Shown: positions 2,064 through 28,725 of the stretch, piece after piece
Layout: the number at the start of each line of letters is the position of its first letter
How positions within the stretch are numbered: the first letter of the stretch is position 1
NCBI RefSeq assembly: GCF_015690345.1
Contig: NZ_JADPUN010000036.1
Span: forward strand, 1 to 40,624
DNA from: Plantactinospora alkalitolerans
GTDB taxonomy: Bacteria > Actinomycetota > Actinomycetes > Mycobacteriales > Micromonosporaceae
DNA: 40,624 nt
Reading direction: 5' to 3'
Program-made: the position numbers and the translations under genes
The notes under the pieces: model-generated
Databases searched by the model: none
What the model saw: only the letters and a program-made list of their open reading frames with translations
Told to the model about the DNA's origin: nothing

Positions 2064-2334
2064 CCAGCCTGGCGGACACAGCAGCGACTGCGGGGAGACC
2101 GCCGCCTCGACGGCTGAGGCCGTGAAGGTGACCGGCGCCCCGGCCAGGGTGGCTTAGAGCCGCTGGACGCGTGCGAGGAGGGCATCGTCGGACACGGCTC
2201 ACATGGTCGCAAGCAGGTGGCCGTGCACCACCGAGGATCCATCACGGATCTGGTCGTGGCCGCCGGTCACCCGGCAGTTCTGGAACACCCTGGGTGCCAT
2301 CACGCCCGATGGTGGACAATCGACGCGCCCAACC

Positions 2335-2497: not shown

Positions 2498-2546
2498 CGC
2501 GGCGGATCATCTGGACCACCGATAGACGACCGAGCGGGGAGTATGC

Positions 2547-4760: not shown

Positions 4761-4780
4761 TCGAGACTTGTCGAACCCAA
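4731..4780 (+). repeat. 50-bp direct repeat, left copy
   Basis: This segment matches 29223-29272 at 42 of 50 positions by my count (35 of the first 40). It contains TTGTCGAAC, but the -10 element found in the right copy is not conserved (CTAGGG in place of TAGCTT). It overlaps the stop codon of the NACHT gene. The two copies lie in the same orientation just outside the BREX genes. Confidence 0.65.
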
Positions 4781-4918
4781 GGATCTAGGGCCACAGCACC
4801 CACCCGGACGAGATCAACGGTATCCAGCGAATCCATCCACGCTCACATTACGAAGAAGCCTGGAGCTGATCGGTACTACGATCACGCTGGACCGCTCCCC
4901 CGACATCATGATGGACGC

Positions 4919-4940
4919 GTCGAACCGCATTGGGTTCGGC
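4919..4940. terminator. Possible hairpin terminator between convergent genes
   Basis: CGAACC (4921-4926) pairs with GGTTCG (4933-4938) around a 6-base loop. One G-T and one G-C pair extend the stem to 8. It lies between the convergent ends of the NACHT gene (4760) and brxHI (5041). No T-tract follows, as is usual in actinomycetes. Weak evidence. Confidence 0.35.
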
Positions 4941-5040
4941 GGGCCGCATCGATCCGTGTCCCGCGACCCACCGCGTCGGTCGCCGACCTTACGGGTTCCC
5001 GGTACACGACCGCAGTCTCAGCCGAGCGTGGCGACACTCG

Positions 5041-11242: not shown

Positions 11243-11245
11243 CGG

Positions 11246-14200: not shown

Positions 14201-15001
14201 GAGGATCAGTTCGTCGAGGAAGAACACCAGCGCGTCGTACCCGAGGGCCTTGGCGTGCCGGGTGATCACGGCGAGGCCGGTGTCCAGGTCGAGGTATTCG
14301 GCGCTGTGCACGGAGCCGGTGAAGAACGTGGTGGTGAGCGCGCTGACCAGCGCGTCCCGGTCCTTGGTGCCGGGCGGCTCGGCCGCCGCCTCGGCGTACC
14401 GCTCGGGGGTCCAGCCCTCGCGTTGCGCGCGCAACGCCGAAAGGTTGAGGCCGCCGGTGCCGGGGGTGGTGCCGCCGTCGCGCAGCGCGGCGAAGAACTG
14501 CTCGTCACCCATCCCCCGCCGGATCGCGGCGGCGTCGTCGAGCAGGCCGTCCGACCGGTGTACGGGCGGCAGCGGCGCCTCCGGGTGGGCGACGCTGACC
14601 TGCCGCAGGTAGCCCTCCAGGATGGCCTGCTCGACCGAGCGCGCGTCGAGCATGTGGCAGGTCAGGCTGAAGAACTTCCGGCCGGGCAGCCACGATTCGG
14701 CGGCGACGATCGGCTCGGCCAGTCCATGAATCTGCCGGGCGCCCGGGTTGTGCTCCAGGATCTCCCGGAGCACCGCCATGAAGTGCGACTTTCCGGAGCC
14801 GAACGAGCCGTGCAGGAACATCGCCTGGGATCTGCCGGTGGTGACCGCGTGCCCGATCCGGCGCATCGCGTCGGTGAAGTTCTCCCGAAGCTGGTCGGTG
14901 ACGACATAGCGGTGCAGGTCGGCCCCCTCGGCCGCCTTGACCACGAAGTCGCCGTCACCGACCGAGGTCGGAATATCGATCAGGTCACGCAGCAGGGTCA
15001 C
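11246..15001 (-). CDS. pglY: BREX-2 P-loop ATPase PglY
   Basis: 1251 residues from the GTG at 15001. P-loop ATPase: Walker A GSFGSGKS at about 65-72 and Walker B LVFFLDE at about 258-264. Opens VTLLRDLIDIPTSVGDGDFV; the early LLRDLIDIP block is typical of PglY/BrxC ATPases. The C-terminus has a Pro-rich tract (PPIVDPLPPVHPPVEPPIVP) before a short end domain. I chose the GTG at 15001 because TTGGAGGA lies 5 bases upstream; a TTG at 15034 in the same frame would add 11 residues but has no good binding site. PglY is a large core ATPase of type 2 BREX, the counterpart of BrxC. It starts 74 bases after the zinc-finger gene and is followed directly by pglZ. Confidence 0.93.
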   Translation of the reverse strand: MTLLRDLIDIPTSVGDGDFVVKAAEGADLHRYVVTDQLRENFTDAMRRIGHAVTTGRSQAMFLHGSFGSGKSHFMAVLREILEHNPGARQIHGLAEPIVAAESWLPGRKFFSLTCHMLDARSVEQAILEGYLRQVSVAHPEAPLPPVHRSDGLLDDAAAIRRGMGDEQFFAALRDGGTTPGTGGLNLSALRAQREGWTPERYAEAAAEPPGTKDRDALVSALTTTFFTGSVHSAEYLDLDTGLAVITRHAKALGYDALVFFLDELILWLSTKISDHTFVNTEGAKLNKLVESADAARPLPLISFIARQRNLEEFLGPQVGGTEREALAHVMRSVQGRLGEIVLADTNLPEITEKRLLKPNDDAARAVLDNAFGAVRHNREVWDTLLLGAQYGDAGIGSDATAFRQLYPFSPALVATLVALSQALQRERTALKVMTELLVDRRDILRVNDLIGVAALFDPLVLRGELPDRPKLKQMFTAARTLYQTKLRPILLTLNGITEERAATSSQFQLDDKLIKTLLLGALVPEVPALHNLTAAKLHALNFGSITAPIPGYENTVVLNRLKKIEQDAGELHLTDDRDPVVTLKLHTVDFDKLLDLVPNGETSAGVRQQLLRELISAELGLAGAEGAHGELLQPREWRGRRHYVQVKFGNVRDPDSMPIAALVSAGEGWRIVIDYPFDPRDYPRSDDRARIDTLPRGSNTVFWLPLYFTDDMMARVAQLAKINYLLGTGGNGDRLNTLAADWPQSDRQQGKVYLQQRQSQLRDGILTALKQAYGAANPQASDVQEDSVGVLHTLADGLRIGDPRGGTLADAFHNLTGELLEWSYPGTPTLPVDEKPLTRAELTKVLDYARLAAADPTNGVAVSTPADQRILRRICNNLQLGEMIDHRYVLEIGTCFWSRHLLQEAAKHDYRKHFPVSLLRELLDQPKKRGFDRDLQNLIIAVFALQQQLGWYHDDDKVSVAGIGGVEDRFTLREPPMPSEDDWRKAVQFGQPFFGTVLPIWRSPTNLGPLAADLRQVAKQYVGSATQLVNELTGHADLLGLDPGAATGRLSTARRVARLLENVAAETDDVVLVGLVARADLGEVEPLGASEVFKKADSLIRALAGTQWPMLAAIVRRAVDDDRARVIIEQLRIAANHEQHAMDLADALRRAVADAAALLAEQTPKPPIVDPLPPVHPPVEPPIVPPVAPGGTTPKLPPVDPTDPDPHRELVASEEQWRTVAGQIEAEVKAGRQVVVTWQVQPAQQDPEVS

Positions 15002-15075
15002 GCGGTCCTCCAAGACTCCCCAGGGCGACGGCAAGGTTACCGAGCAATGTGGAATATGGGGAACCAGGGCATTGG

Positions 15076-17163
15076 TCAGGTATCTGCCAGACCGAGAGCG
15101 GCGAGTGCACCGGTCAGGTCTGCGGCGGTGGCCAGATGGCGGAGGTTTCCCTGCTCACGCAGGTCGACCCGGCAACCGGTCGACCAGAAGTGGACCGTCA
15201 CCCACTGCTCGGCATGATGGGCGGCGAGCCGGAGCAGCAGCGGTTCCGGGTCGGCGATCGCGTCCGATGCCGGCGTCTGCGGTACCGCGACCGGTTGCGC
15301 GGGATCGTCCGGCACCGCCTCGGCCAGCACGCTCTCCAGGTAGTCGAGGGCGTAGGCGACCGCCCCGGCCAGGGTCGGCCGGTCTGTGGGTGCGATCTCC
15401 CCCGCCGTCCATACCGGAGCGCCGAGGGTGATCTCGACGTGCCAGGAGATGCCCTGCACGCGGAGCGGGTCGTCGGCGTGGTGCCGGTTGTCGCATACCG
15501 AGACGTCGATCGTCAGGCCGAGGCCGAGGGCGAGCCGGATCACCTGTGGCAGCGGCGGCACCTCGGGTGGCGCGGCCAGCACAATCAGCCGGGCGCCGGG
15601 TCGGCCCCGGCCGGCGTGGGCGAGGTGCTGGGTCAGCGGTTCGACGTCGGTGGCGTGCAGGGTGACGTACCCCTGGCGGAGGTCCTGGTCGACCGGCCAG
15701 CCGCCGTCGGCCTCGGTGAGGTCCTCCGGTCGTACGCCGAGAGTGCTGGCATGGGTCGCCAGCCGGAAGCGGTCGGGTAGCTGGACCACCGGCTTGCCGC
15801 CGGGCTGGGTGGCGACCAGCGGCGCGGGAGTGGCGTCGGCGGCCCGCCAGTTGAGGTGCACGACCTGGTGGTCCAGGTCGGTGATGGTGACGATCAGTCC
15901 CTGGTAGATCCGGTGGCTGTCCAGGCAGGTGTGGCAGGCCATCCCCCCGGCGCGCAGGCCGGTGCCGCCGCACCTAATGCAGTCGGGGTCGACCGCAGGG
16001 GCGCCGACGGTGCAGAAGCAGGGCCGTAGCCCTCGTTCCGGGTCGCAGGACGGGCACGGGGTGCGGCCGATCGGCTCGCCGAGCCAGTCGGGGTCCGGCG
16101 GCTCCCAGCCCCGCCGGAGCACCTCGGTGAACCGTCGCACCAGTTGACCGGTCTCCCGCTCGACGAGCCGTTCGGTCCGACCGGCGATTCGCAGGGTGGT
16201 GTGCCACCAGCGCCCGTTCCGCCAGATCACGCTCGCCCCGGGTAGCCGCTCCCCGGTGCGCAGGTCGGTGCAGTCGGCCAGCACCCGACGCTCCAGTTCG
16301 TCCAACTCCCAGACCGGTTTCGTCGGGCCGGTGGCCGATTCGACCGACGGAACGAGATACCGGGCGGGCGCGGCGATCCCGCGCGCCGCGATGCCGGAGA
16401 TCGCGGACGGCACGGTGACGGTGCCGAGCGCCTCGACCAGGCTGTACGTGGTCCCGCGCCGGCTCGCCGGCACCGCCGCCCCGGGTACGTCGAAGCGGAT
16501 GTCCCAGAGCAGATCGTCGCCGTTCAGTCGGCGGGCCTCCAGCACCAGGTCGAGGCAGAGCCGGTCGGCGAGAGCGCAGAGCTGGCCGAGCCGGTGCTCC
16601 GGGGCGACCGGCAGCGGCGCGACGCTCCGGCCCCGGTACACCTGCCAGCTCTCGCCGGAGTCCCCGGCGATGGCCCGGGTTTCCAGCGCCAGCCGTTCGT
16701 CGTCGGGTAGCTCGGGGCTCCACTCGCGGGGCAGCCAGACGGCCGATTCGGTGCCCGACTGCCCGTACGCGTCCGACCAGGTGGCAGCGCCGACCGTCGC
16801 GGCCAGCTCGTCGATCAACGGCTTCAGCGGCAGGTGCCAACCGCCGTCCGGCGCCGGTCGGGGCGACACCGTGCCCGGCTCGACGCTGACCGAGGCGACC
16901 GCGCCGGTGTCGACATTGACAACGGTCAGCACGCGCTGCGCCCGCCGCTGGCCCCGCTGCCCGCACCGCCCGCAGGCGTTCGCGACCCGGCCGACACCGT
17001 GACACACCCGGCATTCCTGGTACGGCTCGCGGGGCGCAGGCTCGTCAGTGACCAGGACGCGGCTGCCGTATCCGACGCAGGCGCAGACGCCCAGGGTGAA
17101 AGTCAGCCCGTCGCAGCTCGGGCAGGTGGTGACCAGGGATCGGCCGGTCGTCGGGTCGCTCAT
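15076..17163 (-). CDS. Multi-zinc-finger protein, possible BREX accessory
   Basis: 695 residues from the ATG at 17163. Two Cys-rich regions: near the N-terminus C14, C17, C27, C29, then C51, C54, C64, C67 (CRVCHGVGRVANACGRCG, DnaJ-like CxxCxGxG spacing); and in the middle C370, C373, C382, C384, C395, C398, C410, C413. The remainder is a mixed alpha/beta protein of no recognised family. The ATG at 17163 is preferred over 17259 because the upstream codons read as untypical sequence. It is first in the minus-strand block with pglY, pglZ, brxD and brxHI. It is not one of the six core type 2 genes I know. The zinc ribbons suggest an adaptor that binds protein or nucleic acid, which is inference only. 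Confidence 0.75.
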   Translation of the reverse strand: MSDPTTGRSLVTTCPSCDGLTFTLGVCACVGYGSRVLVTDEPAPREPYQECRVCHGVGRVANACGRCGQRGQRRAQRVLTVVNVDTGAVASVSVEPGTVSPRPAPDGGWHLPLKPLIDELAATVGAATWSDAYGQSGTESAVWLPREWSPELPDDERLALETRAIAGDSGESWQVYRGRSVAPLPVAPEHRLGQLCALADRLCLDLVLEARRLNGDDLLWDIRFDVPGAAVPASRRGTTYSLVEALGTVTVPSAISGIAARGIAAPARYLVPSVESATGPTKPVWELDELERRVLADCTDLRTGERLPGASVIWRNGRWWHTTLRIAGRTERLVERETGQLVRRFTEVLRRGWEPPDPDWLGEPIGRTPCPSCDPERGLRPCFCTVGAPAVDPDCIRCGGTGLRAGGMACHTCLDSHRIYQGLIVTITDLDHQVVHLNWRAADATPAPLVATQPGGKPVVQLPDRFRLATHASTLGVRPEDLTEADGGWPVDQDLRQGYVTLHATDVEPLTQHLAHAGRGRPGARLIVLAAPPEVPPLPQVIRLALGLGLTIDVSVCDNRHHADDPLRVQGISWHVEITLGAPVWTAGEIAPTDRPTLAGAVAYALDYLESVLAEAVPDDPAQPVAVPQTPASDAIADPEPLLLRLAAHHAEQWVTVHFWSTGCRVDLREQGNLRHLATAADLTGALAALGLADT

Positions 17164-17392
17164 CGCTGCCCGGCCTGGGGCGCGTCGGTGATCCGCCGAT
17201 CGGAACGAGTTCGGTGGCTGGAGCGAATACGACAGGCATTTGCGCGCACGGAGCAGCATCCTTTCGCCGAGGATTGTTGATCAGCGCGGCGACCCGGTCG
17301 GAAACTGTATGGACGGTCGCCTCTCGAAGGCCATCTTGTAGCGTGGGGCTGGTGACTGGCAACGAATTCCGGCGAGAAATTGCCACCGCCTA

Positions 17393-17421
17393 TTGACTTA
17401 TTTTCGGTGAACAGATAAACG
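17393..17421 (+). promoter_or_regulatory. Probable promoter of the XRE gene
   Basis: TTGACT (17393-17398) and TAAACG (17416-17421) are separated by 17 bases in a strikingly AT-rich patch of otherwise GC-rich DNA, about 50 bases before the XRE start codon. The 309-base gap 17164-17472 separates two divergent genes, so the regulator could also control the zinc-finger/pglY block from here. No clear operator palindrome was found. Confidence 0.5.
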
Positions 17422-17472
17422 TTTTAGCGGAGGCGGCAGGATGTTGCAAAATCGAACGCGGGGAGTGATCAA

Positions 17473-18357
17473 ATGACCGAGGAGATGGGGTCGACCGTGC
17501 CGCGCCGGCAACTCGGTCGAACGCTGAAGCAGCTACGCACCGAGGCCGGGGTGACCCTGGACGGGGCCGCCGACGCGCTGGAGTGCAGCCGGCAGAAGGT
17601 CTGGCGGATCGAGAGTGGACTCGGCGTGGTCCGCTCGCTCGACGTCAAGGCCATGTGCGCGCTCTACGACGTCAAGCCGGAGCTGGTCACCGCGCTGGTC
17701 GGGCTGGCCAGCCAGACCAAGGCCAAGGGCTGGTGGCACGCGTACGGCGACGCCATCCCCGAGTGGTTCGAGCTGTACGTCGGCCTCGAAGCGGTCGCCT
17801 CCCGACTGCGGTTCTTCAAGGACGCGCTGCTCCCCGGCATCGTGCAGACACGCGAATATGCCCTTGGGATGTACCGCACCGACCAGCCGGAGATGGACGA
17901 GGATAGTCGGGAACGCGCCATCGGGGCACGGTTACAACGTCAAAGCCTGCTGACCCGGCGCCTGCCTCCGGCACCGAGCGTGGAGATAGTCCTGTCCGAG
18001 GCTGCGCTACTACGGCCCGTCTGCGACCGGCAGGTCATGATCGGGCAGCTCGAACATCTACTGGCGGTATCCGCGCTGCCGAACGTCGTCATCCGAGTGC
18101 TGCCGCTGGCAGCCGGGCAGCACCGCGGTTCCCTGGCCGGCTCGTTCATCATCCTCGACTTCCCCGCCGGCAACCGGAACACTCCGGAGCCACCGATCGT
18201 CTACTGCGAGTCGCTGACCGGGGCTCTCTACCTCGACCGGCCCGCCGAGTACGCCGCCTATGAGAAGGTATGGGCCAGCCTGGATGCACTCGCACTCGAT
18301 GAGGGACAATCGAGAAACATGATCCACAAAATCATCGGGGAGATGCAGCATGGCTGA
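17473..18357 (+). CDS. XRE-family regulator with DUF5753 domain
   Basis: 294 residues. N-terminal helix-turn-helix at about 13-65 (LGRTLKQLRTEAGVTLDGAA ... SRQKVWRIESG), then a DUF5753 domain from about 95 to 285, marked by FFKDALLPGIVQTREYA and VVIRVLPLAAGQHRGSLAGS. The ATG at 17473 has GGGGAGTG upstream at good spacing. Such regulators, of the WhiJ type, occur in many paralogues in actinomycetes, almost always followed by a small DUF397 gene, as here with an 8-base overlap. Some pairs control development or act like antitoxin/toxin partners. Position in the gap between the two BREX blocks, divergent from the zinc-finger gene, makes local control of BREX possible but unproven. Confidence 0.9.
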   Translation: MTEEMGSTVPRRQLGRTLKQLRTEAGVTLDGAADALECSRQKVWRIESGLGVVRSLDVKAMCALYDVKPELVTALVGLASQTKAKGWWHAYGDAIPEWFELYVGLEAVASRLRFFKDALLPGIVQTREYALGMYRTDQPEMDEDSRERAIGARLQRQSLLTRRLPPAPSVEIVLSEAALLRPVCDRQVMIGQLEHLLAVSALPNVVIRVLPLAAGQHRGSLAGSFIILDFPAGNRNTPEPPIVYCESLTGALYLDRPAEYAAYEKVWASLDALALDEGQSRNMIHKIIGEMQHG

Positions 18358-18553
18358 CCTGCGCGATGCGCACTGGCGCAAGAGCACTCGCAGCGGGGGC
18401 AACGGCGGCGAGTGCGTCGAGGTCGCCGACAACCTGGTCGGCGTCGTCGCCGTACGCGACAGCAAGGACCAGGCCGGACCGGTCCTCGCCTTCCCGCCGC
18501 GCGCCTGGTCCGCCTTCGTCTCGGGAGTCAAGACCGCCACGCTCGTCCATTGA
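18350..18553 (+). CDS. DUF397 domain protein
   Basis: 67 residues, full length for the family. It reads MADLRDAHWRKSTRSGGNGG, then ECVEVADNLVGVVAVRDSKD and ends with GPVLAFPPRAW and SAFVSGVKT: all the signature blocks of DUF397 (W-RKS--SG--G-CVEVA, RDSK-P-GP-L-F, W--F---VK). The start overlaps the end of the XRE gene, so the two are co-translated. DUF397 proteins are small partners of XRE/DUF5753 regulators, thought to modulate them. This is the only intact copy in the window; three broken copies lie at 1303, 2360 and 29014. Confidence 0.92.
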   Translation: MADLRDAHWRKSTRSGGNGGECVEVADNLVGVVAVRDSKDQAGPVLAFPPRAWSAFVSGVKTATLVH

Positions 18554-18600
18554 CCGACCCGCTCCTACCGATGCCCTCAGCCTCCGGCCAGGGGCATCCG
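18479..18600 (+). repeat. DUF397 3'-end repeat, intact-gene copy (copy B)
   Basis: The last 25 codons of the intact DUF397 gene plus about 47 bases after its stop match copies A (1303-1422) and C (29014-29125), all on the plus strand. Between A and B the shared downstream part includes CCTCCGGCCAGGGG and GCATCCG, so similarity is not limited to coding sequence under selection. Confidence 0.7.
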
Positions 18601-18895
18601 ATGTTCCCGACTCACTCCGCACACATCATCGGGTGCCGTCGGCTCGACCTCCTCAGCCAGGGCTGTCGGCCTTGGGACTGTGGCCGATTGACCAACCCCG
18701 ATAGTCTTTCGCCATTGGTCGGGCGTGATACCACCTCGGGTTACGTTCCGACGACACGGACGGGCAGCCATACAACGACGGCGATCCGGAGGACCGGCGT
18801 GGCCAGCATCGAGGACGTGGGGCAACACTCGCTCGAACCGCTGGGCTGGGCAGCGACGCCACGAACCAAATCCTCGGCCGATCCGGCTTGATGCA
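18554..18895. other. Intergenic region with a small inverted repeat
   Basis: No gene is supported in these 342 bases. After the DUF397 repeat there is a GACCAA / TTGGTC inverted repeat (18690-18695 and 18715-18720) around an AT-richer core containing GATAGTCT. It could be an operator or promoter element for the three-gene set that starts at 18896, but no clear -35/-10 pair with normal spacing was found. Confidence 0.35.
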
Positions 18896-19156
18896 GTGAC
18901 GATCAACGAGGTCAAGGCCACCCTCCGCGCCGGCATCGAGGCAATCGAGCACGGCCGCTCCACGTTCGAGCAAGCCGCCACTGACGCCGCCGAAGCCATC
19001 GCCCGCGCCCACCAGCTCCTGCAAGACAGTCAGGATGGCGAAGTTAAAAAGATGCGGAAGAGCCTGACTGCGGCAGAGGGCGAGGTCAAGGCGACCGTCG
19101 GCCGGTTCGCCGCTGCCAAAGGCAACGCCGAGTCCTACCTCGCCGACCTCGGATGA
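18896..19156 (+). CDS. Small helical protein of unknown function
   Basis: 86 residues from a GTG at 18896 (MTINEVKATLRAGIEAIEHG...). Almost entirely predicted helix, with heptad-like spacing and no Cys or Trp, like a helical hairpin or coiled coil. I do not recognise the family; the build recalls small alpha-helical proteins common in Micromonosporaceae, often encoded beside a second helical protein, as here. No strong ribosome binding site is visible before the GTG, so the start is uncertain, but the upstream part of the frame looks non-coding. Its stop overlaps the next start (ATGA). First gene of a three-gene set nested between the BREX blocks. Confidence 0.65.
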   Translation: MTINEVKATLRAGIEAIEHGRSTFEQAATDAAEAIARAHQLLQDSQDGEVKKMRKSLTAAEGEVKATVGRFAAAKGNAESYLADLG

Positions 19157-19860
19157 CCGTCAGCGTCGGGGAGGTCGTTGCCCAGTTGCTTGCCGTGCGC
19201 AGAAAACTGGACGCCGCCGCCGTCACCGCACTGCGCGCCCAAGCTGACGCCGACCAGGCCGAAGCACACTTCACCGAGGTCGCCAGGGGCACCAGCCACA
19301 ACGACATCGGTGAGGCCATCACGGCCAGCCACACCGCCAGCGAGAAGGCCGCCCGGTACGCCCGACTCCTCGCCAAGGCGAACGGAAGCCTGACCGCCTA
19401 CATCAACAAGATCGCCCCCGGCTCGGTCCCCACCCATCAGGCCGCCGAGACCGCAGCACCGTCAGGCGAGCAACTGCTCAATGACACTGTCGAACGATCA
19501 AACACGCGACGCAACATCGACAGTTACCTGAGTAGGATGGCACGCGATGCCGAGAACATCCAGGACACCGCGAAGACCTCGACAGAGGCTGTGCAGCAGG
19601 GTGTCAACATCGTCCGTGCTGCTCCCAGTCCACCAGGGATCCAGCAGGCTGGGACCGGCACGCCGAGCGCGCCAGTCCCGACATCCAGGCCGAAGATCGA
19701 CGCACCCGAAGCGGCAGGCAACATCGTCGTCGTCGCTCTGATAACTGGGATTGCGATTCGACGATTCAGCCAAACAGTCAGTGACACGATAGCGAGGATG
19801 AAGAAGCGTGGGCACGAGGACCGAACTCAGCGACCTGATTCGCGCGATGGCTCGCCGTGA
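19153..19860 (+). CDS. Helical protein with C-terminal hydrophobic segment, unknown function
   Basis: 235 residues. The first 100 or so are helical (VVAQLLAVRRKLDAAAVTAL ... AEAHFTEVARG) and resemble the 86-residue protein just upstream in build. A Pro/Ser/Thr-rich linker (about 155-188) leads to a hydrophobic stretch NIVVVALITGIAI near 190-203, followed by basic residues (RRF...RMKKRG), as in a single membrane span. No signal peptide is apparent. The ATG at 19153 overlaps the previous stop by 4 bases, so translation is coupled. The 3' end overlaps the next gene by 53 bases. Function unknown; the layout (helical domain, linker, membrane span) would suit a membrane-linked sensor or scaffold. 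Confidence 0.65.
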   Translation: MTVSVGEVVAQLLAVRRKLDAAAVTALRAQADADQAEAHFTEVARGTSHNDIGEAITASHTASEKAARYARLLAKANGSLTAYINKIAPGSVPTHQAAETAAPSGEQLLNDTVERSNTRRNIDSYLSRMARDAENIQDTAKTSTEAVQQGVNIVRAAPSPPGIQQAGTGTPSAPVPTSRPKIDAPEAAGNIVVVALITGIAIRRFSQTVSDTIARMKKRGHEDRTQRPDSRDGSP

Positions 19861-20239
19861 CTGGGGTACCGCCGACCGCCTCATACTTGAACTGGACAAG
19901 CTGGGATGGCAGGGAGGTCCTCAGGTCATCGGTGCCGCTTTCGCTATCGCCGTCAACCGTAGGTTCGAATCCGTCTCCGACGCACGCGCGATCACGCGGT
20001 TCGTCGCCGAAACCCGCTCTCAGTACGAGGGGGGCAGCCAGCTTTCCGCCCTCGAAACAGAGGGCTTGATCCGAGCTGCCCTCGGCGAGGTCGAGTTGGC
20101 GGATACCATCAAACCCGACACTGCCCTGACGATCCAGATCACCATCATCGGCGCACTCCTACAGGACGCCAATTTCACCGATCCTCAACTCGAAGAGTTC
20201 ATCGCCGAGGTCGAACAGGCGGCAGCAAGGTTTATGTGA
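19808..20239 (+). CDS. Conserved-looking small protein of unknown function
   Basis: 143 residues from a GTG at 19808 inside the 3' end of the previous gene (MGTRTELSDLIRAMARRDWG). All-helical prediction, acidic, ending FIAEVEQAAARFM. The even spread of hydrophobic and charged residues looks like a genuine folded protein, but I cannot name the family. The long overlap (53 bases) with the preceding gene supports a single operon. It converges with the membrane-protein gene at 20319-21059; the 79 bases between them contain a tight palindrome CAGGAA-GT-TTCCTG (20251-20264) and no convincing terminator. Confidence 0.65.
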   Translation: MGTRTELSDLIRAMARRDWGTADRLILELDKLGWQGGPQVIGAAFAIAVNRRFESVSDARAITRFVAETRSQYEGGSQLSALETEGLIRAALGEVELADTIKPDTALTIQITIIGALLQDANFTDPQLEEFIAEVEQAAARFM

Positions 20240-20318
20240 GCCTCGATGCCCAGGAAGTTTCCTGTGAAACCGTTGATCAGCCAGCTCAATCGCGCAGTAA
20301 TTCGCCGTCCAGCATCCG

Positions 20319-21059
20319 CTAATCCCATGTACCGATTCGCCGCCAGTGAGCAAGGCGGGCGTCGGTCGTTGCAACGCTGGCCCGCATCGCTAAAGCCCAC
20401 TCTTCCTGCTCTCTCAAGATTGCCACAAATGTTTCATCCTCGCCAACACTTACTAGCGTAACGCCATCATCGGACCGCAATAGTTGGTCGACTTCGAAAC
20501 CACGGTACAGCGGACGAGAGCCAGCGAGACGGCGCCGCCGTTCATGCCAACTCCGGATAGATTTCGTCGGGATCAGTTGCCGCCAGCCGCGCGCCGGACG
20601 TTCTTCCAACAACTTTCGTAGCCCCGTGTCCTGACGACGACAATTTACCACCAACTCGCGTGCCCGTTCATACTGGTCTGATGATCCATCGCGATTCATG
20701 AAGATGGTGCGATAGAAGTCTTGCAATACTGGGCGGATGGCGTTCATATCCGCCACATGAGCCTCTAACAGATCACATGCTTGCACTAGGATCTCGTCGC
20801 AACGTCTACTGCCACTCTCCTTCTCTTCGCCGGGAAGCGGCTCACCTGCGTCGACCTCGCTAACATAATTGCGAGCTATGAAGTTCCAAGCGACATCCCC
20901 AGCCGTCAAGACCAAGTCGTACGCATATTCGCGTCTGGCCGCATGTCTGGCGTCTACAGCAAGTTGTCGGTCGACGCGCTTGCCATAGATACTCACGCTG
21001 CCCGCAATTACGGCACAAAAAACCGCTACAATTGCAGAAACAACGATCCCGATTATCAC
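20319..21059 (-). CDS. Membrane-anchored protein co-encoded with PglX, unknown function
   Basis: 246 residues. One N-terminal membrane span (IIGIVVSAIVAVFCAVIAGS, residues 2-21) followed by a basic, mostly helical cytoplasmic part (RRCDEILVQACDLLEAHVAD and later RSWHERRRRLAG). The GTG at 21059 overlaps the pglX stop as GTGA, so it is translated from the pglWX message. No family recognised. The DNA is clearly less GC-rich than its surroundings and uses codons such as ATA, TTA and AGA-type more freely, a sign of recent arrival. Topology would place the bulk of the protein in the cytoplasm at the membrane. The coupling to PglX makes a BREX-related role plausible; it is not a known core gene. Confidence 0.7.
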   Translation of the reverse strand: MIIGIVVSAIVAVFCAVIAGSVSIYGKRVDRQLAVDARHAARREYAYDLVLTAGDVAWNFIARNYVSEVDAGEPLPGEEKESGSRRCDEILVQACDLLEAHVADMNAIRPVLQDFYRTIFMNRDGSSDQYERARELVVNCRRQDTGLRKLLEERPARGWRQLIPTKSIRSWHERRRRLAGSRPLYRGFEVDQLLRSDDGVTLVSVGEDETFVAILREQEEWALAMRASVATTDARLAHWRRIGTWD

Positions 21060-24000
21060 AGCACAGCCGTCCTCCTGGTCGGGCTAGTGGTGTGGTTCGA
21101 TTGCAAGGTGAGGCGATCGGCATCGAGTTGAGATAGTTCCGTGTCGATCAAGTCTGTGACGAGCTGCGCTGGCGAGCCGAGGAAGCCCTCCCGCTCGTCG
21201 GCATACCACTGGTGCAGCCACGGCTCCAGCTCGACCAGCCCGGCGAGCAACGGCAACAGCCGATCCCGCGACCAGGCAGCCTGCGTCTTGCGGTCTAGGT
21301 AGATGGCGGCCAGGGCCTGGGCCTGCGCCAGGTGGTCCCAGCCGGCCCAGCCGAGTAGCTCACTGCCGTCGCCATCCCGACCCGCCTTCGGGTACGAGAT
21401 GAAGCGTTCTTTCGGCACGTCGAGCTTGCCCCGCTGCCGCCAGTACGACGCCTTCACGAAGTCAGCCGACGAGTACTTCGGCGGCACGTCGATCTGCACG
21501 TCCTCGCCCGCATCCTCCAATCGCTGCAACGCCCAGGTACGCTCCCACTGCGCACGCTTCCGCAGCCCGGATGGCTTGTAGCGCTGCACCGGCAGGTACG
21601 GCACATTCTCATCCGCGACGAGCTTGCCAAGGGTCTTGGTCAGGTCGTGGTCGTCCCGCCCGACCCAGAGGTCCAGCACCGAACGGAAGCCTTCGTCATG
21701 CCGCACCTTGTCGGCGAGTTGCGCCACCGACTGCGGCGTCGGATGCACGCCCCACAACTCTGGCGTCTCGAGCCGATCCAACAGCCAGCCACGCAGTGCA
21801 CTGGTCTGCATCATGTCCCAGCCCTCGCTGGCCCACCGCCGCTTGCACTCCGGCCGCTCGATCAGCCCAATGTTGCGGTCCGACTCAATCACCGCGATGC
21901 GCCGCTCCACCAGTGCCCGGTAGTTATCCGGCCAGTGCGCCGGAAACTCAGTTAGCGGCGTCGACCCATGCCGCGTGAACCACTGGGTCTCTACCTCGCC
22001 GGCCGCCATCTTACGGGCGAGCACGATCTCGAACGCTCGCTCCCCCAGCTTCAACTCCGGCGGCTCCGCACACGTCAGCTCCTCATCCAGCAGCCCGTAG
22101 AGTTGGTAGACCTCCCAGTCCAATTCCTCCTGCACGGCGATCATCTGCGCCCGGATCGACTCGTACTCACCCCGAGCCACCTTCACCTGATCCCGCGTCG
22201 GCGCTTCCGAATCGGCTACCGCAGCCGGCGTCACCTCACCAAGCCGCTGAGCCAACCCATCTAGCCGCCGTGCCAATTCCAACGGGTACGCCCCCGGCAG
22301 CGGAAACTCCTGCAACTTGGTACCCGTGAACTCGTAGAACCGCTCCCAATCATCGCTGGTAAAACCACCACCTTCGCCACGAATGCCCTTATCGTGACTA
22401 ACCTGCTTGAGCCAGAAGCAGGCCGTCGAGCTATTTAGGACGCTGAGTAACTGCAAGTAGTCATGCTCCCCCGCTCCTTCTTTCAACTTCACAACAGGTG
22501 CATGCTGATTGAAAGTCAACCCGCCACGCCCTAACGCAAACTGGCAGTGCGTAGAGACGTGCGAAAACGAGATAGCATACGGAGTGTCATATCGAGATTG
22601 AACCCATCGATACCATGACCACCAAGGGAGACCTGCATCAGCGCGGGTCCGTCTCGAGAAATCCGTGAGCGCCTCAAGCACTTTTTTGCCGAGCCAGAGA
22701 TGCCTGGACCAATGCAATCCCATGTCAACGGCAATCAAATTGCCATGGCTGTCGTAGGGAACGAGAGCCTTCAACCCTGGACGAAGCTCCCAGTCCCTGA
22801 CCTCCTCACCGGTGACCATAGGGCGAACTACAGAGTCAGGAGTTCCGTGTCGGGTGTGCCATGCGGCAGGCAGGTAGAATAGGTCATCGACGCCAGAGAA
22901 GCTCGCAAATCCGACTTGGCCAGATATGAGTCTGGCTACCGTCAAATCCCGCGTGTCTGCAATTCTCTGCATCAAGTCCGATGCGCCACCGCCCGAGAGA
23001 GACCAGGGGAATGCGACCATTCGGGCACGGGGGAGGTCGACGACAGTAACCCAATCAGATTCTGAATCGGGCACGTCTACTTGCCCGACGATCGCCAGCC
23101 ATACCGCTCCCTCTGCGGGTCTGACTGGCTGAGAGGGTTCACCCCTTACACCAAGAACCGCCCGAATTGGGCCACTGTAGCGCGGACTCACGAAGCGGTT
23201 ATTGCCGATCAAGATAACAGTAGGCGTGCCATGGCCAGGAATAAAGGCACCAGAAGTATCGATAACCTCGGTTAATTCGACCCATCCAGCAAAGTATTTC
23301 TCGATAAGATTCTTGCCAAATTCACGCTTCATGAATGCATTACCCGTGATTTGGCCAACGCGACCAGCACCATCGCCCTGGCTATCTCCGCGCTTAGCGA
23401 GTTCAAAGAATCGCTCGGCGAAGGGAACCGTCAGAGCATACTTTCCGGAGCAAGTTTTTTCGTAAATGCTTCGATATAGTTTGTTGCGGGCGGCATCTGA
23501 TACGGTGATGTAAGGCGGATTACCAACTACCACAGTGTACTGATCCTGACGCAGATAGTCCTTAAGAAGCTCGACATCCTCAGTTACATAGGCGAAGCCT
23601 GGACGCCCTTTGAGGTGAGCAATCAGATCGCCCTGGATACCCCACTTGAGCAGTGAATCTCCCGTGGCTACCCGTACGGGCCAGGATGGGATGCGCTCTA
23701 GCGACGACAGGTCGCAGACCTTCATCGCGGCGATCAGCAGACGGAAGCGGGCGATGGCGACCGCGAACGGGTTGATGTCGACGCCGGTGACCTGCCCGAG
23801 CGCCCGCTCGGCGATCACCCTGATGTCCGTCGCCGGCTCGCGTTCCCTCCACTTCGTGACTAGCCGGTGGAAGACACCGAGTAGGAAGTGCCCGGACCCG
23901 CAGGTCGGGTCGATTACGTTCGTCTCGGCCAGGCCGAACTCCTCGACCGCCGGCTCGAACGTCCGGTCGAGGATGAACTCCTCCACGAAGTCCGGCGTCT

Positions 24001-24583
24001 GCAACAGCGCGTACGTCTTCTTCGCGTGCACGGACAGGTCCTGGTACAGGTCACCGAGGAACCGGGTGTCCAGGTCGTCCCGCCGCAGCGACACCAACCC
24101 CGCCCCGCGACGAAAGAAGTCGGAGAGCCCCTCGGCCGCCTCGCCACTCAGATCGAACCGCCAGACCGGATTGTGCTCGTCGAAGATCTTCGCGGTGGCC
24201 CGCAGCCCACGCAGATACCCGAACGCTTCCCGCAGCCAGTGCCGGTCGTTGTGCCGAGGGTTCGCGATCAGATACTGCTGCCGGTGCTGCATCGCCCGCT
24301 CGGCCGGGGCGGTCGGCGCCGGGCCGCCGATCCACAGCGGCTCGACCAGCGAGTTGTCCTCGCAGAAGCGTACGAAGACACAGCCGAGCACCCAGGCCAC
24401 CGCCGCCTGGTCGAGGATGTCCTCCAGCCAGGTTTCGAAGGTCGCCGCCGTACGCTTCGCCTCCCCTGCCTGCCCGTGCTCCTTGCGCAGTGACGATTCC
24501 AGCTCCGAGTCCCGGCCGACCTGTTCGCGCAGGTCGTCGGTGAGCGCGGTGACCTGGGCCTGCAAGGCTTTGAGCGGGATCAT
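21056..24583 (-). CDS. pglX: BREX-2 adenine-specific DNA methyltransferase PglX
   Basis: 1175 residues from the ATG at 24583. Class I N6-adenine methyltransferase: motif I DPTCGSG at 225-231 (S-adenosylmethionine binding), VTGVDINPFAVAIARFR near 265-281 and catalytic motif IV NPPY at 355-358 (VVVGNPPYITVSDAARNK). PglX modifies a specific site in host DNA, marking it as self; in type 2 systems this methylation goes with phage exclusion. The start overlaps the pglW stop (ATGA). The segment from about 23690 to 22350 (residues about 300-745), which includes NPPY and probably the target-recognition part, has GC near 40-50% against about 70% on either side. A run of six C lies at the pglW end, 2 bases before the start; no long G-tract like that of S. 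coelicolor pglX is seen. Confidence 0.95.
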   Translation of the reverse strand: MIPLKALQAQVTALTDDLREQVGRDSELESSLRKEHGQAGEAKRTAATFETWLEDILDQAAVAWVLGCVFVRFCEDNSLVEPLWIGGPAPTAPAERAMQHRQQYLIANPRHNDRHWLREAFGYLRGLRATAKIFDEHNPVWRFDLSGEAAEGLSDFFRRGAGLVSLRRDDLDTRFLGDLYQDLSVHAKKTYALLQTPDFVEEFILDRTFEPAVEEFGLAETNVIDPTCGSGHFLLGVFHRLVTKWREREPATDIRVIAERALGQVTGVDINPFAVAIARFRLLIAAMKVCDLSSLERIPSWPVRVATGDSLLKWGIQGDLIAHLKGRPGFAYVTEDVELLKDYLRQDQYTVVVGNPPYITVSDAARNKLYRSIYEKTCSGKYALTVPFAERFFELAKRGDSQGDGAGRVGQITGNAFMKREFGKNLIEKYFAGWVELTEVIDTSGAFIPGHGTPTVILIGNNRFVSPRYSGPIRAVLGVRGEPSQPVRPAEGAVWLAIVGQVDVPDSESDWVTVVDLPRARMVAFPWSLSGGGASDLMQRIADTRDLTVARLISGQVGFASFSGVDDLFYLPAAWHTRHGTPDSVVRPMVTGEEVRDWELRPGLKALVPYDSHGNLIAVDMGLHWSRHLWLGKKVLEALTDFSRRTRADAGLPWWSWYRWVQSRYDTPYAISFSHVSTHCQFALGRGGLTFNQHAPVVKLKEGAGEHDYLQLLSVLNSSTACFWLKQVSHDKGIRGEGGGFTSDDWERFYEFTGTKLQEFPLPGAYPLELARRLDGLAQRLGEVTPAAVADSEAPTRDQVKVARGEYESIRAQMIAVQEELDWEVYQLYGLLDEELTCAEPPELKLGERAFEIVLARKMAAGEVETQWFTRHGSTPLTEFPAHWPDNYRALVERRIAVIESDRNIGLIERPECKRRWASEGWDMMQTSALRGWLLDRLETPELWGVHPTPQSVAQLADKVRHDEGFRSVLDLWVGRDDHDLTKTLGKLVADENVPYLPVQRYKPSGLRKRAQWERTWALQRLEDAGEDVQIDVPPKYSSADFVKASYWRQRGKLDVPKERFISYPKAGRDGDGSELLGWAGWDHLAQAQALAAIYLDRKTQAAWSRDRLLPLLAGLVELEPWLHQWYADEREGFLGSPAQLVTDLIDTELSQLDADRLTLQSNHTTSPTRRTAVL

Positions 24584-27500
24584 CGGGGGGTGGTCCTCTC
24601 CGGGGCGGGGGTGATCCAGGCTTCGGGTAGCCACATCGACTGGCTTCCTGGTGAGGTGAGCGGGACCTGCACGCCGTCCAGCACGGGGGTTCCGGTGCCC
24701 CGGGCCGGCACCAGCAGCAGCCGGGCGGCCGCGCGGGGACGGGTCGGGTCGGCCAGGTGCTGGATCACCTGGAGTTGGCCGTACCGGGCCAGCGGCGCGG
24801 CCTCGGTGATCAGCACGGGCCGCTCGGCGGCGTCGATCGCCTGCTCGACAGCCGGTACGACGTGATGCTGCACCAGCTCGACCAGGCTTCGGAAATCGGG
24901 GTCGGCCGGCGAACCGCTGTCCGCCGCGACGATCGCCTCCCAGGGGAAGCCAAGCGCCCGCAACTGGTCGAGCAGGATCGCGGTGACGTCCACTTCGGTC
25001 AGTCGCAGCCGGGCCAGCAGCGCCCGCCGGGCCGGGCCGAGCCGGCGGAGCGAGGCGAGCAGCACCAGGAAGCCGTGCCGGTCGATGGTGCCGGTCAGGC
25101 GGGTGTGCGCGGCGGCGACCTCGTCCGGGCCGAGCAGTGGGCTGAGCGTGGTCGCCCACCGGGTGCCGCTGACCGACGAACCGACGTCGCGGGGGCCGTA
25201 CTTTCGCGCGCCAGGATGCCAGGTCAGCGGCGCCTCGCCGGCCCGTAGCAGGTCGTCCAACTCGGGACGGTCCGGCAGCTCCTGAGCGCGGGGGAACCGG
25301 GCGCGCACTCTGGCGCGTACCGTCTCGGGGTCCAGGAACTGGCCGACCAGGCCGCCGATGGCGAGCTTCAGCGCACGCTCGGCGGGCATCGCCCTGGGGT
25401 AGAGCTGGCCCTGCGGGTTGACGTCGGCCTGTCCGTTGCTGCCGGCTGCGGCGAGTTGCAGCAGCCGCTGGTCGCTGAGCAGCGGCATCCCGGCCGGCGC
25501 GGCCAGGGTACGCAGCTCTTCCACCGCCCGTTGCCGGGTCGGCAGCGGGTCGGCGGCGGCCAGGGTCGCCGCCTGGCGGCCGAGCCGGACCACGTAGGCC
25601 AGCAGGTCGGCGGCGGTGCTCTCCGCGGCCGGATCGTCCGGCTCGCGGCCGATCAGCACCGCCTCGGAGCGCTGGAACCGCTGGATGGCGAGCCGCGCGT
25701 CGCCGCCCCGGTTCAGCTCCGCCTCCACGGCGGCCCGGACCAGGCCGATCGCCTGCGCGGTCCGCTTCGGCTCGGCGGTGAACGAGCCCCGGGCGGCGAC
25801 CAGCGCGTCGGCCAGCTCCTCGCTGGACATGACGGCGCCTCGGCCGTCCAGCAGGGCGACGATCTCGTCCCGGATGGTGGTCAACGCGGGATTGTTCAGC
25901 CATTCCTTGCCGGCGAACCGGCGCAGCAGCGTGGAGATCTGCGGCTGGACCTGGTCGGTGGCCCGCGCCACCTCGGCCTGGGCCGGCCAGTGCAGGAAGG
26001 TGTCGCCGTTCCCGGTCGCTTGCCCCAACAACACCTGGAGGGTACGGCGCTGCCGCTGGTTACGGCTGGTCTCCGGCGGCAGCAGGGTGGCGCTGATCGC
26101 CTCGATGCCCTGGGCCGTGGGCTGGCCGGCTACAGGGGCCGGCGACGCGGCGGTCGCATCCGCCTCGGCGAACTCCTCCCGCAGCGCCCGGGTCTTGGCC
26201 AGGATCTCCTTGCGGGTCGCGTCCGGCACCCCCCTGGCCCGAGTCAACGCGGACGGCTCGGCGTCGAGCAGCTCCCCGACCGTGTGTACGCCGAGCCGTT
26301 CCAGCGCCGACCGGGCCCGTGCCGTCAGCGTCGTCGCCTCCAGCGGCGAGTCCTGGTCGAGCAGTACGGTCGCCGGCCCGACCTCGCCCGGCTTCGACTT
26401 CAGTTCGGGGATGTCCCGGAAGATCGCCCGCCAGGCGTCGGTCATCTCGTCCAGGGTGTCGAACCGGCGGGCGGTGTCCCGGGCGAGCGCCTTGTCGAAG
26501 AAGGCGACCAGCCGGTCGGCGACCGACTGGTCGAAGGCGGCCGGGTCGAGGGTCACCTCCTCGCTGATCGCCGCCGGGTTGGCGTTGTCGCCCCAGCGTG
26601 GCAACGTGCCGGTGGCCATCTCGTACAGGGTGACGGCGGCGGAGAACCGTTCGGCAGCGGCGTCGTAGCGCATCCGGCGCGGCGGGCCGAGGAACGGGTC
26701 AAGATAACCGGTGGTGCCGGCGTTGATCTGGTCCGCCGGGGTGTCGGCCAGGGAGAAGTCGAAGATGCACAGATGCGGCTGCTTGTCCTTCGGACGCGGC
26801 CGGGCCGCCAGGTTCGCCGGCTTGATGTCCCGGTGCCACACCCCCTGGCCGTCCAGCATGGCGACGATCTCCAGCAGGTCGCGGCCGTACCGTTCGAGCA
26901 GGTCCAGCGAGAGACGTCCCTCGCGCAGATCCTCGGCCAGGGTGCGGGACCCGGCGTTCTCCATCAGCAGCGCGGTGCGCGGGCCGACCTGGACCGGACC
27001 CTTCACCAGGGCCGCGACCCGGGAGTCGCGGACCTTGTCCAGGGTGCGCGCCTCGGCGGCGAACCGCTCCCGGTGCTGTTCGTCCCGGGCCACCTTCAGC
27101 ACCAGGTCCCGGCGCCCCTCCGGGGTCTCCGCGTCGACCAGCAGGGCGGTGGCGGTGGCGCCACTGCCGAGCCGGTCCTTGACCACCAGACCGCCGTCCA
27201 GCACGTCACCCCGGCGAGCCTGTAGCGGGTCGATCACCGGCTCCGGCTCCGGCGCGGTCAACTCGTCCCAGACGAGTTCCAGGCAGGACCGGAAATCCGC
27301 CATCCGCGCGGTCCGCTCGGCTGGATCACCCCGGGTGGCGTCGTAGACCAACTGCACCAACGCGTACGGCATGCCGTCGACCACGGCGTCCAGGTGCAGC
27401 CCGCCGTCGGCGACGGCGGTGAGCAGCTCGTCCGCACTCGCTGCCGGGTCGGCACCGGCGAAGATCCGGTACGTCAACGCGCCCAGCGCGAACAGGTCGA

Positions 27501-28725
27501 GCTGATGCCCCGGCAGGTGCTCCAGGGTGGTCGCCTCGGGCGCCTGGTAACGCCGGACCTGGTCGTCGAAGAAGATTTCCAGGCTGGCCGGGTCGGACGG
27601 CGGGGTGAGCTGGGTCAGCCGAGTACTGGCCAGTCGGGCACCGGTCTGCCAGTCGGTCACCACGAGGGTGGGCCGGGGACCGTCCGGGTCGCTGACGAAA
27701 ATCGCCCGCGGATGCAGTGACCGGTGCACCAGCCTCCGCGAATGGGCATAGTCGATGATTTCGGCGAGATCCTGCACCAGTTGCAGCCGCTGCGCCATGT
27801 GCAGCTTGGGGCCCCGCTCGACCAACCACTGATCGAACCGTACCCAGCTCGGCTGGTGGTCGAACACCACCGCCGGGCCCCAGGGATGTTCGACCAGATC
27901 GGTGGCGCGGGCGATGCCGGGATGGTGGATGCCCTGCAACAACCGGAATTCCCGCTCGGCCGCCCGCTTGATCGATGGGATGTCCTCCTCGGCCGCCCGG
28001 CTGGTCAGATAGAACCGGACCCGCCGCGTGGTGGCGGCGTCGAGCGAGTGGTCGGCGAGGAAGTCCTGCCAACCGATCCCCTCGGCGAACGGACGCTGAT
28101 GCAGTTGGAGCTGGTTGATGTTGCGTTCGGCCACCGATGGCCGGATCTTCGCGCCCTTGACCAACTCGACGATCTGCCGCGCCCGGACCGCGTCCACCAC
28201 ATGACTCGGATTGCTCGGCTGGGTGAGCAGCAACTTCTTCAGGCTGTCCAGCCCCGCGTTGTGCCCGTCGAGCCCGTAGACGTGCTGACGGCCGATCGGG
28301 TCCAGGCTGGCCCGCATGTTCCGGGCGTGCAGGAAGACCGCCGCGCCGACGTACGGCGTCTTGCCGGGCTGCCGGGCGTAGAACCTGATCAGGCTGGCCA
28401 GCCGCTTCGCCTTCCGGTTCGCCAGGATGTACGGGTTGTCCACCTGGCGCCGCCGACCGTTGGGCATCCGGCGCATCCAGAGCATGCCGTCGCCCTCGAT
28501 CTCGCCCTGCCAGTGCTTCAGCTCCAGCACGTACAGGCCACTGCGGGTGAGGATCAGCGCGTCGACCTCGTTGATCGAGCCGTCGGTGCCGACGAACTCG
28601 ACGTTCGCCCAGACGTGGTACGGCTCCGCGTCCGGCAGGTACGACGCCAGCTCCCGCAACCCGTCCTGCTCGTGTGGGAACGCGCTCGGGTTGATCTGCT
28701 CCCACCGGGGAGAGTCCTCACGCAC
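24580..28725 (-). CDS. pglW: BREX-2 NERD and serine/threonine kinase protein PglW
   Basis: 1381 residues. A NERD nuclease-related domain at about 15-135 keeps the PD-(D/E)xK set D55, E68, K70 (VDALILTRSGLYVLELKHW). A first kinase-like domain (about 225-490) has HRS at 334-336 in place of HRD and DWQ at 358-360 in place of DFG, so it is probably catalytically dead. A second kinase domain (about 508-790) has the glycine loop GSGATA (520-525), K544 in VLKV, HRDIKPAN at 631-638 and DFS at 656-658, and looks active. The C-terminal 500 residues are helical, with a helix-hairpin-helix-like LERLGVHTVGELL segment. PglW is a core type 2 BREX protein with kinase activity in the S. coelicolor system. The GTG at 28725 has a weak binding site. 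Confidence 0.95.
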   Translation of the reverse strand: MREDSPRWEQINPSAFPHEQDGLRELASYLPDAEPYHVWANVEFVGTDGSINEVDALILTRSGLYVLELKHWQGEIEGDGMLWMRRMPNGRRRQVDNPYILANRKAKRLASLIRFYARQPGKTPYVGAAVFLHARNMRASLDPIGRQHVYGLDGHNAGLDSLKKLLLTQPSNPSHVVDAVRARQIVELVKGAKIRPSVAERNINQLQLHQRPFAEGIGWQDFLADHSLDAATTRRVRFYLTSRAAEEDIPSIKRAAEREFRLLQGIHHPGIARATDLVEHPWGPAVVFDHQPSWVRFDQWLVERGPKLHMAQRLQLVQDLAEIIDYAHSRRLVHRSLHPRAIFVSDPDGPRPTLVVTDWQTGARLASTRLTQLTPPSDPASLEIFFDDQVRRYQAPEATTLEHLPGHQLDLFALGALTYRIFAGADPAASADELLTAVADGGLHLDAVVDGMPYALVQLVYDATRGDPAERTARMADFRSCLELVWDELTAPEPEPVIDPLQARRGDVLDGGLVVKDRLGSGATATALLVDAETPEGRRDLVLKVARDEQHRERFAAEARTLDKVRDSRVAALVKGPVQVGPRTALLMENAGSRTLAEDLREGRLSLDLLERYGRDLLEIVAMLDGQGVWHRDIKPANLAARPRPKDKQPHLCIFDFSLADTPADQINAGTTGYLDPFLGPPRRMRYDAAAERFSAAVTLYEMATGTLPRWGDNANPAAISEEVTLDPAAFDQSVADRLVAFFDKALARDTARRFDTLDEMTDAWRAIFRDIPELKSKPGEVGPATVLLDQDSPLEATTLTARARSALERLGVHTVGELLDAEPSALTRARGVPDATRKEILAKTRALREEFAEADATAASPAPVAGQPTAQGIEAISATLLPPETSRNQRQRRTLQVLLGQATGNGDTFLHWPAQAEVARATDQVQPQISTLLRRFAGKEWLNNPALTTIRDEIVALLDGRGAVMSSEELADALVAARGSFTAEPKRTAQAIGLVRAAVEAELNRGGDARLAIQRFQRSEAVLIGREPDDPAAESTAADLLAYVVRLGRQAATLAAADPLPTRQRAVEELRTLAAPAGMPLLSDQRLLQLAAAGSNGQADVNPQGQLYPRAMPAERALKLAIGGLVGQFLDPETVRARVRARFPRAQELPDRPELDDLLRAGEAPLTWHPGARKYGPRDVGSSVSGTRWATTLSPLLGPDEVAAAHTRLTGTIDRHGFLVLLASLRRLGPARRALLARLRLTEVDVTAILLDQLRALGFPWEAIVAADSGSPADPDFRSLVELVQHHVVPAVEQAIDAAERPVLITEAAPLARYGQLQVIQHLADPTRPRAAARLLLVPARGTGTPVLDGVQVPLTSPGSQSMWLPEAWITPAPERTTPR

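Follow-up and report, generated by a model that had tools for sequence, protein, structure and literature searches.

A low-GC core within BREX type 2 pglX as a probable exchangeable specificity block

A compositional question in a phage defence locus

BREX is a phage defence system whose target word is set by PglX. In the locus studied here, the middle of pglX is poor in GC and its two ends resemble the rest of the host genome. The question is whether this core has been exchanged as a specificity module or owes its composition to constraint on the encoded domain.

The locus lies in a 40,624-nucleotide stretch of Plantactinospora alkalitolerans contig NZ_JADPUN010000036.1, referred to below as the window. 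The source genome comprises 9.2 Mb in 441 contigs, and GC content is 71% in a sample of 277 kb. The locus, a complete BREX type 2 (Pgl) system, occupies the minus strand in the order pglW, pglX, approximately 6 kb of other genes, pglY, pglZ, brxD and brxHI, with all six genes recognized by PADLOC models between positions 5,041 and 28,725. The first gene, pglW (24,580-28,725; 1560 bits), encodes a kinase with a NERD domain. Farther along lie pglY, a BrxC-type ATPase (11,246-15,034; BrxC-PglY model, 1392 bits), pglZ (8,459-11,242; E 6e-282), the brxD ATPase (7,161-8,462; 681 bits, with Pfam BrxC_BrxD) and an open frame for the brxHI helicase (5,041-7,512; 1068 bits over residues 123-820).

The pglX coding sequence (21,056-24,583, minus strand) begins at an ATG inside its overlap with pglW and encodes an N6-adenine DNA methyltransferase of 1175 amino acids. 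It matches the PADLOC PglX model over residues 6-1168 (1648 bits) and the Pfam families Eco57I, MmeI_Mtase and DUF7008. A longer open frame, 21,056-25,903, was rejected as the extent of this gene.

The GC step inside pglX

In 300-bp windows, GC content is 0.48-0.59 between approximately 22,350 and 23,700, with a minimum of 0.483 at 23,250-23,549, compared to 0.65-0.78 in the remainder of pglX and in pglW (windows starting at 21,150-21,900 and from 23,700 upward). Third codon positions follow the same course. GC3 in 60-codon windows is 0.87-0.95 over residues 1-300, 0.43-0.63 over residues 300-750 and 0.73-0.92 over residues 751-1170, and most of the GC drop is therefore synonymous. The maximum-likelihood low segment spans residues 294-747 (22,343-23,704), where GC3 is 0.53 as against 0.86 outside, for a log-likelihood gain of 72. 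When high-GC3 flanks are required on both sides, the segment becomes residues 318-745 (22,349-23,629). The left border is sharper than the right. The first-pass annotation, made by eye from the letters, had described a GC drop within one uninterrupted gene, with borders near 22,350 and 23,690 and covering residues of about 300-745. This description is confirmed, and the two borders agree with the computed ones to within about 10-60 bases.

Chance or ordinary fluctuation of GC content is rejected as the cause by two sets of controls, genes from the same genome and pglW genes of the same loci (see below). For the former, an interior-dip score was computed for 72 genes of at least 400 codons, drawn from 15 stretches that total 277 kb. 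The score of pglX is 43.2; the maximum among the 72 genes is 8.5 and the 95th percentile is 4.2. An earlier scan of this genome had returned high scores (up to 140) at several frame starts, which were read as false N-terminal extensions, and the interior-dip score was used instead. The neighboring genes pglW, pglY and pglZ have mean GC3 values of 0.90-0.91 and best low-segment gains of 6-11, without a comparable block. Amino-acid composition is likewise rejected as a cause, since the GC3 comparisons below are corrected by amino acid.

Anatomy of the low-GC block

The window gene has all of the features expected of a BREX type 2 PglX, namely motif I, NPPY, a target-recognition domain (TRD) and a carboxy-terminal DUF7008. 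Its amino-terminal end (residues 1-293; 23,705-24,583) has host-like GC3 and consists of a helical domain, with model helices within residues 4-216, and motif I (DPTCGSGHF, 225-233). The dip then extends over the catalytic half (residues 295-450; 23,234-23,701), where GC3 is unusually low. This part contains the catalytic motif NPPY (residues 355-358; 23,510-23,521), as the first-pass annotation had it. N355, P356 and P357 are invariant and Y358 nearly so among 59 sequences.

The same annotation had also placed a probable TRD in the low-GC part. The TRD of E. coli BrxX comprises residues 651-837 according to the accessible text of PMC11842806, and profile comparison by hhalign with an alignment of E. 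coli type 1 proteins (probability 98.7) transfers it to approximately residues 527-760 of the window protein (22,304-23,005). The block thus begins past motif II and takes in the NPPY-bearing catalytic half and then the TRD. Host-like GC3 returns in the carboxy-terminal end (21,074-22,144), which contains DUF7008 (PF22654, E 1.5e-156). An AlphaFold model built from the 59 PglX sequences has a pLDDT of 87.3, and Foldseek matches it to CamA, M.BseCI, MmeI and the type 1 structures BrxX 9ewz and PglX 8c45. By this model, the block is predicted to end in a loop that precedes a run of long helices and DUF7008. These helices may be the spacer helices described for Salmonella PglX.

The dip is family-wide and does not by itself establish exchange

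A tblastn search for relatives yielded 189 PglX frames. Removal of 55 fragments, partial matches and over- or under-length frames, and of 17 duplicates, left 117 for alignment, all distinct type 2 PglX sequences of full length; residues 451-745 were taken as the core. Amino-acid-corrected GC3 is lower in the core than in the ends at z<-2 in 109 of the 117 homologues and higher at z>2 in none, with a mean difference of -0.20; the dip at z<-2 is absent in eight. A first set of PglX sequences had given z<-2 in 67 of 73 rows. Planctomycetota show it in 8 of 12 rows and lack it in 4, where the 12 rows represent 11 genes (one is counted twice and one is a frameshifted fragment) and some apparently repeat genes among the 117. 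The control gene behaves differently. There are 77 full-length pglW frames, 63 of which share a key with a retained pglX, and at the same relative place z<-2 occurs in 0 of these 63. The worst window is deeper in pglX than in pglW in 61 of the 63 loci.

The E. coli type 1 genes repeat the pattern. Thirteen alleles were compared, 12 from loci picked by hand among 60 of 351 records and one from strain HS. In all 13, core GC3 is 0.18-0.31, as against 0.53-0.57 expected from the ends, and the low segments start at residues 514-610 and end at residues 940-977. Core values near 0.24 look lower than the neutral expectation. The HS genes brxC, pglZ and brxL have no comparable block.

A low-GC core that is present in 109 of 117 homologues cannot alone carry a claim of exchange. 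The first-pass annotation had gone further, holding that a dip in all homologues regardless of host would mean compositional constraint. Taken literally, the dip in the type 2 genes and in every E. coli allele examined refutes its proposal by its own standard, but the meaning that it attached to such a dip is contradicted by the behavior of conserved codons.

Constraint or relaxed codon selection could act on a fast-evolving, poorly conserved domain without any import of DNA. The dip does cover the least conserved part of the protein, and within the core the variable columns (<50% conserved) have a slightly lower GC3 residual than the conserved columns (≥80%), at -0.231 versus -0.163. The corresponding GC3 values in E. 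coli are 0.23 and 0.26. Evolutionary rate therefore adds some part of the effect. However, variable and conserved columns of the ends are nearly equal, with residuals of 0.004 and 0.016, and conserved columns of the core are shifted as well, with GC3 corrected by amino acid. In the window gene, conserved columns reach -0.270 in the core and -0.395 at residues 306-440, and the conserved core of the E. coli genes lies far below their ends (0.58). Because conserved core codons are shifted too and variable end codons are not, the composition belongs mainly to the block of DNA, and rate is rejected as the main cause. Rate also cannot yield the tree conflict, or the core identities above end identities, described below. 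Constraint as a full account of the core is thus quite improbable.

A different account of the dip is that cores circulate across hosts of all GC contents, and that a dip appears in high-GC hosts only because the shared pool has a lower mean. This account addresses why the dip arises and can hold together with exchange. Core GC3 follows end GC3 with a slope of only 0.61 (r 0.52), and a Planctomycetota gene with ends at 0.52 (L198) has no dip, as such regression to a pool mean would have it. But the E. coli cores are again lower than their ends, which points to a shift relative to each host group, and this makes regression to one common mean unlikely. The alternative that specificity blocks make up a separate, traded gene pool that stays AT-shifted relative to any host can be put forward tentatively. 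The common AT-shift is seen in hosts as far apart as Micromonospora and E. coli, conserved codons included. If such a pool exists, a GC3 step within a gene could serve as a general mark of exchanged specificity domains, recognizable from sequence alone.

Type I specificity genes offer a parallel. Among the matches listed in related genomes, 30 HsdS loci (L228-L257) were taken, 28 of which have usable flanks. HsdS has a mean GC3 of 0.66 versus 0.84 in the flanking frames and is lower in 25 of the 28, although the rule for choosing flanking frames favors high GC3 and the comparison is only indicative.

Cores and ends have separate histories

Evidence for exchange comes instead from the relation between cores and ends. 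Among the 6786 pairs formed by the 117 sequences, core similarity hardly follows the similarity of the ends. Mean core identity is 0.48 (range 0.37-0.81) in the 25 pairs whose ends are at least 0.90 identical and 0.44 in the 3334 pairs whose ends are 0.50-0.60 identical, the pairs of both groups being non-independent. Two loci with nearly the same ends, L174 and L178, are 0.98 identical in the amino-terminal part and 0.95 in the carboxy-terminal part, with a core identity of only 0.49. Conserved flanks around unrelated recognition domains in close relatives are the pattern known from TRD exchange. Few pairs have a core in common, the best being L009 and L013 (ends 0.91, core 0.81). The reverse pattern also occurs, in that some distant proteins have cores closer than their ends; for L117 and L157 the identities are 0.46 (amino-terminal), 0.59 (carboxy-terminal) and 0.68 (core).

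Trees were computed for 72 of the 117 rows by quick searches under LG+G4. The end tree can carry a two-clade label taken from the ends with 2 changes; the core tree needs 17, of which supported branches force 11. The core of the window protein pairs with a row from the far clade, and its nearest relative by path is L022, of a Streptomyces (SH-aLRT 98). The core data reject the end-clade that unites the window with L008, L009, L013 and L139 (p-AU 0.0005), and the end data reject a grouping of the window with L022 (p-AU 3e-42 as printed). The recognition-domain tree is thus in conflict with the tree of its flanks.

Identity also changes abruptly along the gene. The four nearest relatives of the window PglX ends, three from Micromonospora and a fourth from the same family, are 85-86% identical to it over residues 1-300 and 78-82% over the carboxy-terminal end. 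At the DNA level, identity to these four is 0.82-0.86 up to residue 290 (0.83-0.85 at 151-290), falls to 0.65-0.72 at residues 291-450 and 0.44-0.51 at 451-745, and rises to 0.73-0.83 after residue 745 (0.73-0.82 at 746-780). The drop at approximately residue 290 and the recovery at approximately 746 confine the loss of identity to the segment of odd composition, which is the outcome that the first-pass annotation had named as a check on its proposal.

The low-GC core is therefore read as an exchangeable specificity block of BREX type 2 PglX, with a probability of about 0.88 for exchange of the core. The exchange proposed in the first-pass annotation stands on the decoupling of identities, on the tree conflict with its AU tests and on sharp, recurrent borders; its original argument from GC content is insufficient, given a dip in nearly all homologues.

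Recurrent borders and the length of the putative exchanged tract

Swap borders were mapped in 47 close pairs picked for a core identity below 0.7. The left border falls at residues 281-317 in 27 of these non-independent pairs, at or beyond residue 450 in 14 and between these positions in 6. The right border falls at residues 740-780 in 36 of the 47 and elsewhere in 11. The borders of relatives thus cluster at the GC borders of the window gene, which belongs to the long class. In the 78 non-independent pairs of the 13 E. coli alleles, the right border lies at 950-970 in 77, and the left border lies at 500-520 in 41 (adjoining NPPY at 508), at 540-580 in 19, at 300-350 in 10 and at 640-700 in 8. 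The HS pglX gene is at least 80% alignable in only 4 of the 351 genomes with a match.

The amino-acid-corrected GC3 difference of the window gene ranks 19th of 117 for the core. For residues 305-440 it is -0.365, the lowest of all 117 (mean -0.069) and as low as that of the TRD. This value, together with the identity step at approximately residue 290, suggests that the catalytic half joined the TRD in the import, and import of the whole block in a single tract, from a donor with less GC, is fairly likely. Inclusion of the catalytic half rests on GC3, on the DNA identity step and on the long border class seen in relatives.

A shorter swap would have replaced only the TRD (residues of about 450-745), with residues 295-450 being old host DNA that lost GC or the product of a separate event. 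A tree of residues 300-440 fits such a history: the window stays in its end-clade, which these residues do not reject (p-AU 0.29). In addition, 14 of the 47 pairs of relatives have the short left border. But the steps in GC content and DNA identity are at approximately residues 290-300 and not at 450, and the catalytic half has the extreme GC3 value given above. The short swap is accordingly the less probable history, though it deserves more weight than constraint. For import as a single long tract, placement of the 300-440 protein sequence with the end-clade means that the donor pglX would have belonged to the same lineage as the window gene.

A model for exchange and its sources

The most likely mechanism is homologous recombination between pglX genes that swaps the middle and keeps the ends. 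Crossovers would fall in conserved coding sequence flanking the block, the left one mostly after motif II (approximately 281-317) or after the catalytic half (approximately 450-517) and the right one mostly just after the TRD (approximately 740-780). The window gene is consistent with the long version, in which the catalytic half with NPPY and the TRD would move together. The block would keep the base composition of its own AT-shifted history, and its borders would therefore appear as a GC step. A new TRD would direct PglX to a different short DNA word, and modification and phage exclusion would follow. That a new core changes the methylated motif is expected by analogy with the published engineering of type 1 PglX. 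The amino-terminal domain and DUF7008 would stay available to the rest of the complex, and we infer that these ends contact PglW, PglY and PglZ.

A search of plasmids, phages, viral contigs and 396 Actinomycetota genomes found no close donor of the block. In the 396 genomes, the closest relative of the window TRD is 55% identical, and the phage records listed (15 of 18) gave only matches of 23-24%. The window TRD (residues 448-760) is covered to at least 80% by six plasmid records, one of them unannotated and the other five labelled BREX-2 pglX. In the Actinomycetota genomes, the window excepted, the open frames that hold the TRD matches are 1193-1426 codons long, comparable in length to pglX. 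From these labels and frame lengths, the exchange pool appears to be made up of other pglX genes. A 45-kb viral-contig record of IMG/VR (L227), putatively viral, contains a PglX relative of full length that is 43% identical.

Programmed variation within one genome, by on-off switching, inversion or use of silent cassettes, would also diversify specificity, and second copies of pglX do occur in some related loci (L024, L156). The silent cassettes, repeats or slippage tracts that mark phase-variable specificity genes were not seen in the draft genome or in the stretch around pglX. It contains one PglX match at E<=1e-30 and one Eco57I-domain match, in a 441-contig draft that may miss copies. There is no direct or inverted repeat of at least 20 bases in 19,000-26,500, an interval that includes the flanks of the block, and no recombinase was found among ten window proteins scanned with Pfam and PADLOC. 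Streptomyces pglX undergoes phase variation by slippage; this mechanism is rejected for the window pglX, which has only two homopolymer runs of six or more bases, both of A and neither listed as longer than six, and no G tract. Programmed variation is the least probable of the accounts considered, and recombination between pglX genes is preferred.

Relation to known systems

In the accessible text of two studies of type 1 BREX (PMC11842806, PMC11341690), the TRD is the most variable part of PglX/BrxX and substitutions in it alter the methylated BREX motif. The type 1 enzymes resemble the block described here in TRD variability, and a change of motif would be a further likeness. What is available of these papers deals with variability and engineered changes, and contains no mention of natural swap borders, of a co-travelling catalytic half or of base composition. 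Divergence of pglX between Salmonella and E. coli HS is remarked on in the part of PMC9009780 that could be consulted, and TRD divergence between BREX types 1 and 2 in that of PMC12839542. In restriction-modification specificity genes, recombination is reported to move recognition domains and diversify methylomes (PMC3077401).

The case described here differs from TRD exchange in restriction-modification systems, as one block of a single BREX enzyme is involved and this block includes half of the catalytic domain. The TRDs treated by Furuta and colleagues reportedly lie between repeats in a separate S subunit or at the end of a fused enzyme. Enterobacterial O-antigen clusters are likewise highly polymorphic, exchanged and atypically low in GC content, but there whole gene clusters are concerned, whereas the PglX block lies within one uninterrupted gene.

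Variability and swapping of the TRD are known already. What looks new is the fixed ports, the long blocks that take the catalytic half along, and an AT-shift found across most of the family, conserved codons included. No report of natural swap borders or of a GC signature of PglX cores was found in a literature search with thin coverage of subscription papers, which is weak evidence of absence.

The data indicate that, in nature, BREX is retargeted through replacement of a single block whose borders recur; most of the closely related pairs examined accordingly carry different blocks. BREX motifs are predicted to differ between close relatives, natural swap borders are now available for retargeting tests, and the composition mark can be used in finding exchanged specificity domains.

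Other features of the locus and of related loci

The first 120 or so codons of the brxHI frame (7,142-7,512, minus strand) have a GC3 of 0.40 versus 0.82 in the remainder, and the BrxHI profile begins at residue 123. Because of these two features, the true start of brxHI is probably about 120 codons further in; the alternative is another piece of odd composition.

A separate GC dip is located downstream of pglX at approximately 20,100-21,150 (0.54-0.58 in 300-bp windows). Here, a 246-amino-acid open frame (20,319-21,059, minus strand; GC 0.55, GC3 0.55) overlaps the pglX stop. It has no Pfam or PADLOC match and no relative in the other loci compared, and it may be a second imported piece.

The interval between pglX and pglY (15,076-20,239) holds genes outside the BREX core set. 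These include a 727-amino-acid frame (15,076-17,259), a frame at 17,473-18,357 that by appearance resembles a helix-turn-helix regulator, and two frames within 19,153-20,239. Partial relatives of some of the interval genes adjoin pglX in three of the related loci (L013, L174 and L178).

Two pglX genes stand side by side in L024 of Promicromonospora soli (6,001-12,805), the second of which runs off the end of its contig. L156 matches Dactylosporangium fulvum L015 and carries two copies approximately 4.7 kb apart on opposite strands (1,713-13,145); these copies are 40-49% identical outside residues 300-450. Such double-pglX loci are possible reservoirs for exchange. In a locus from the same genus as the window (L130, 6,346-11,284), a second pglX is in two pieces, and the 493-amino-acid frame between them resembles a transposase by appearance.
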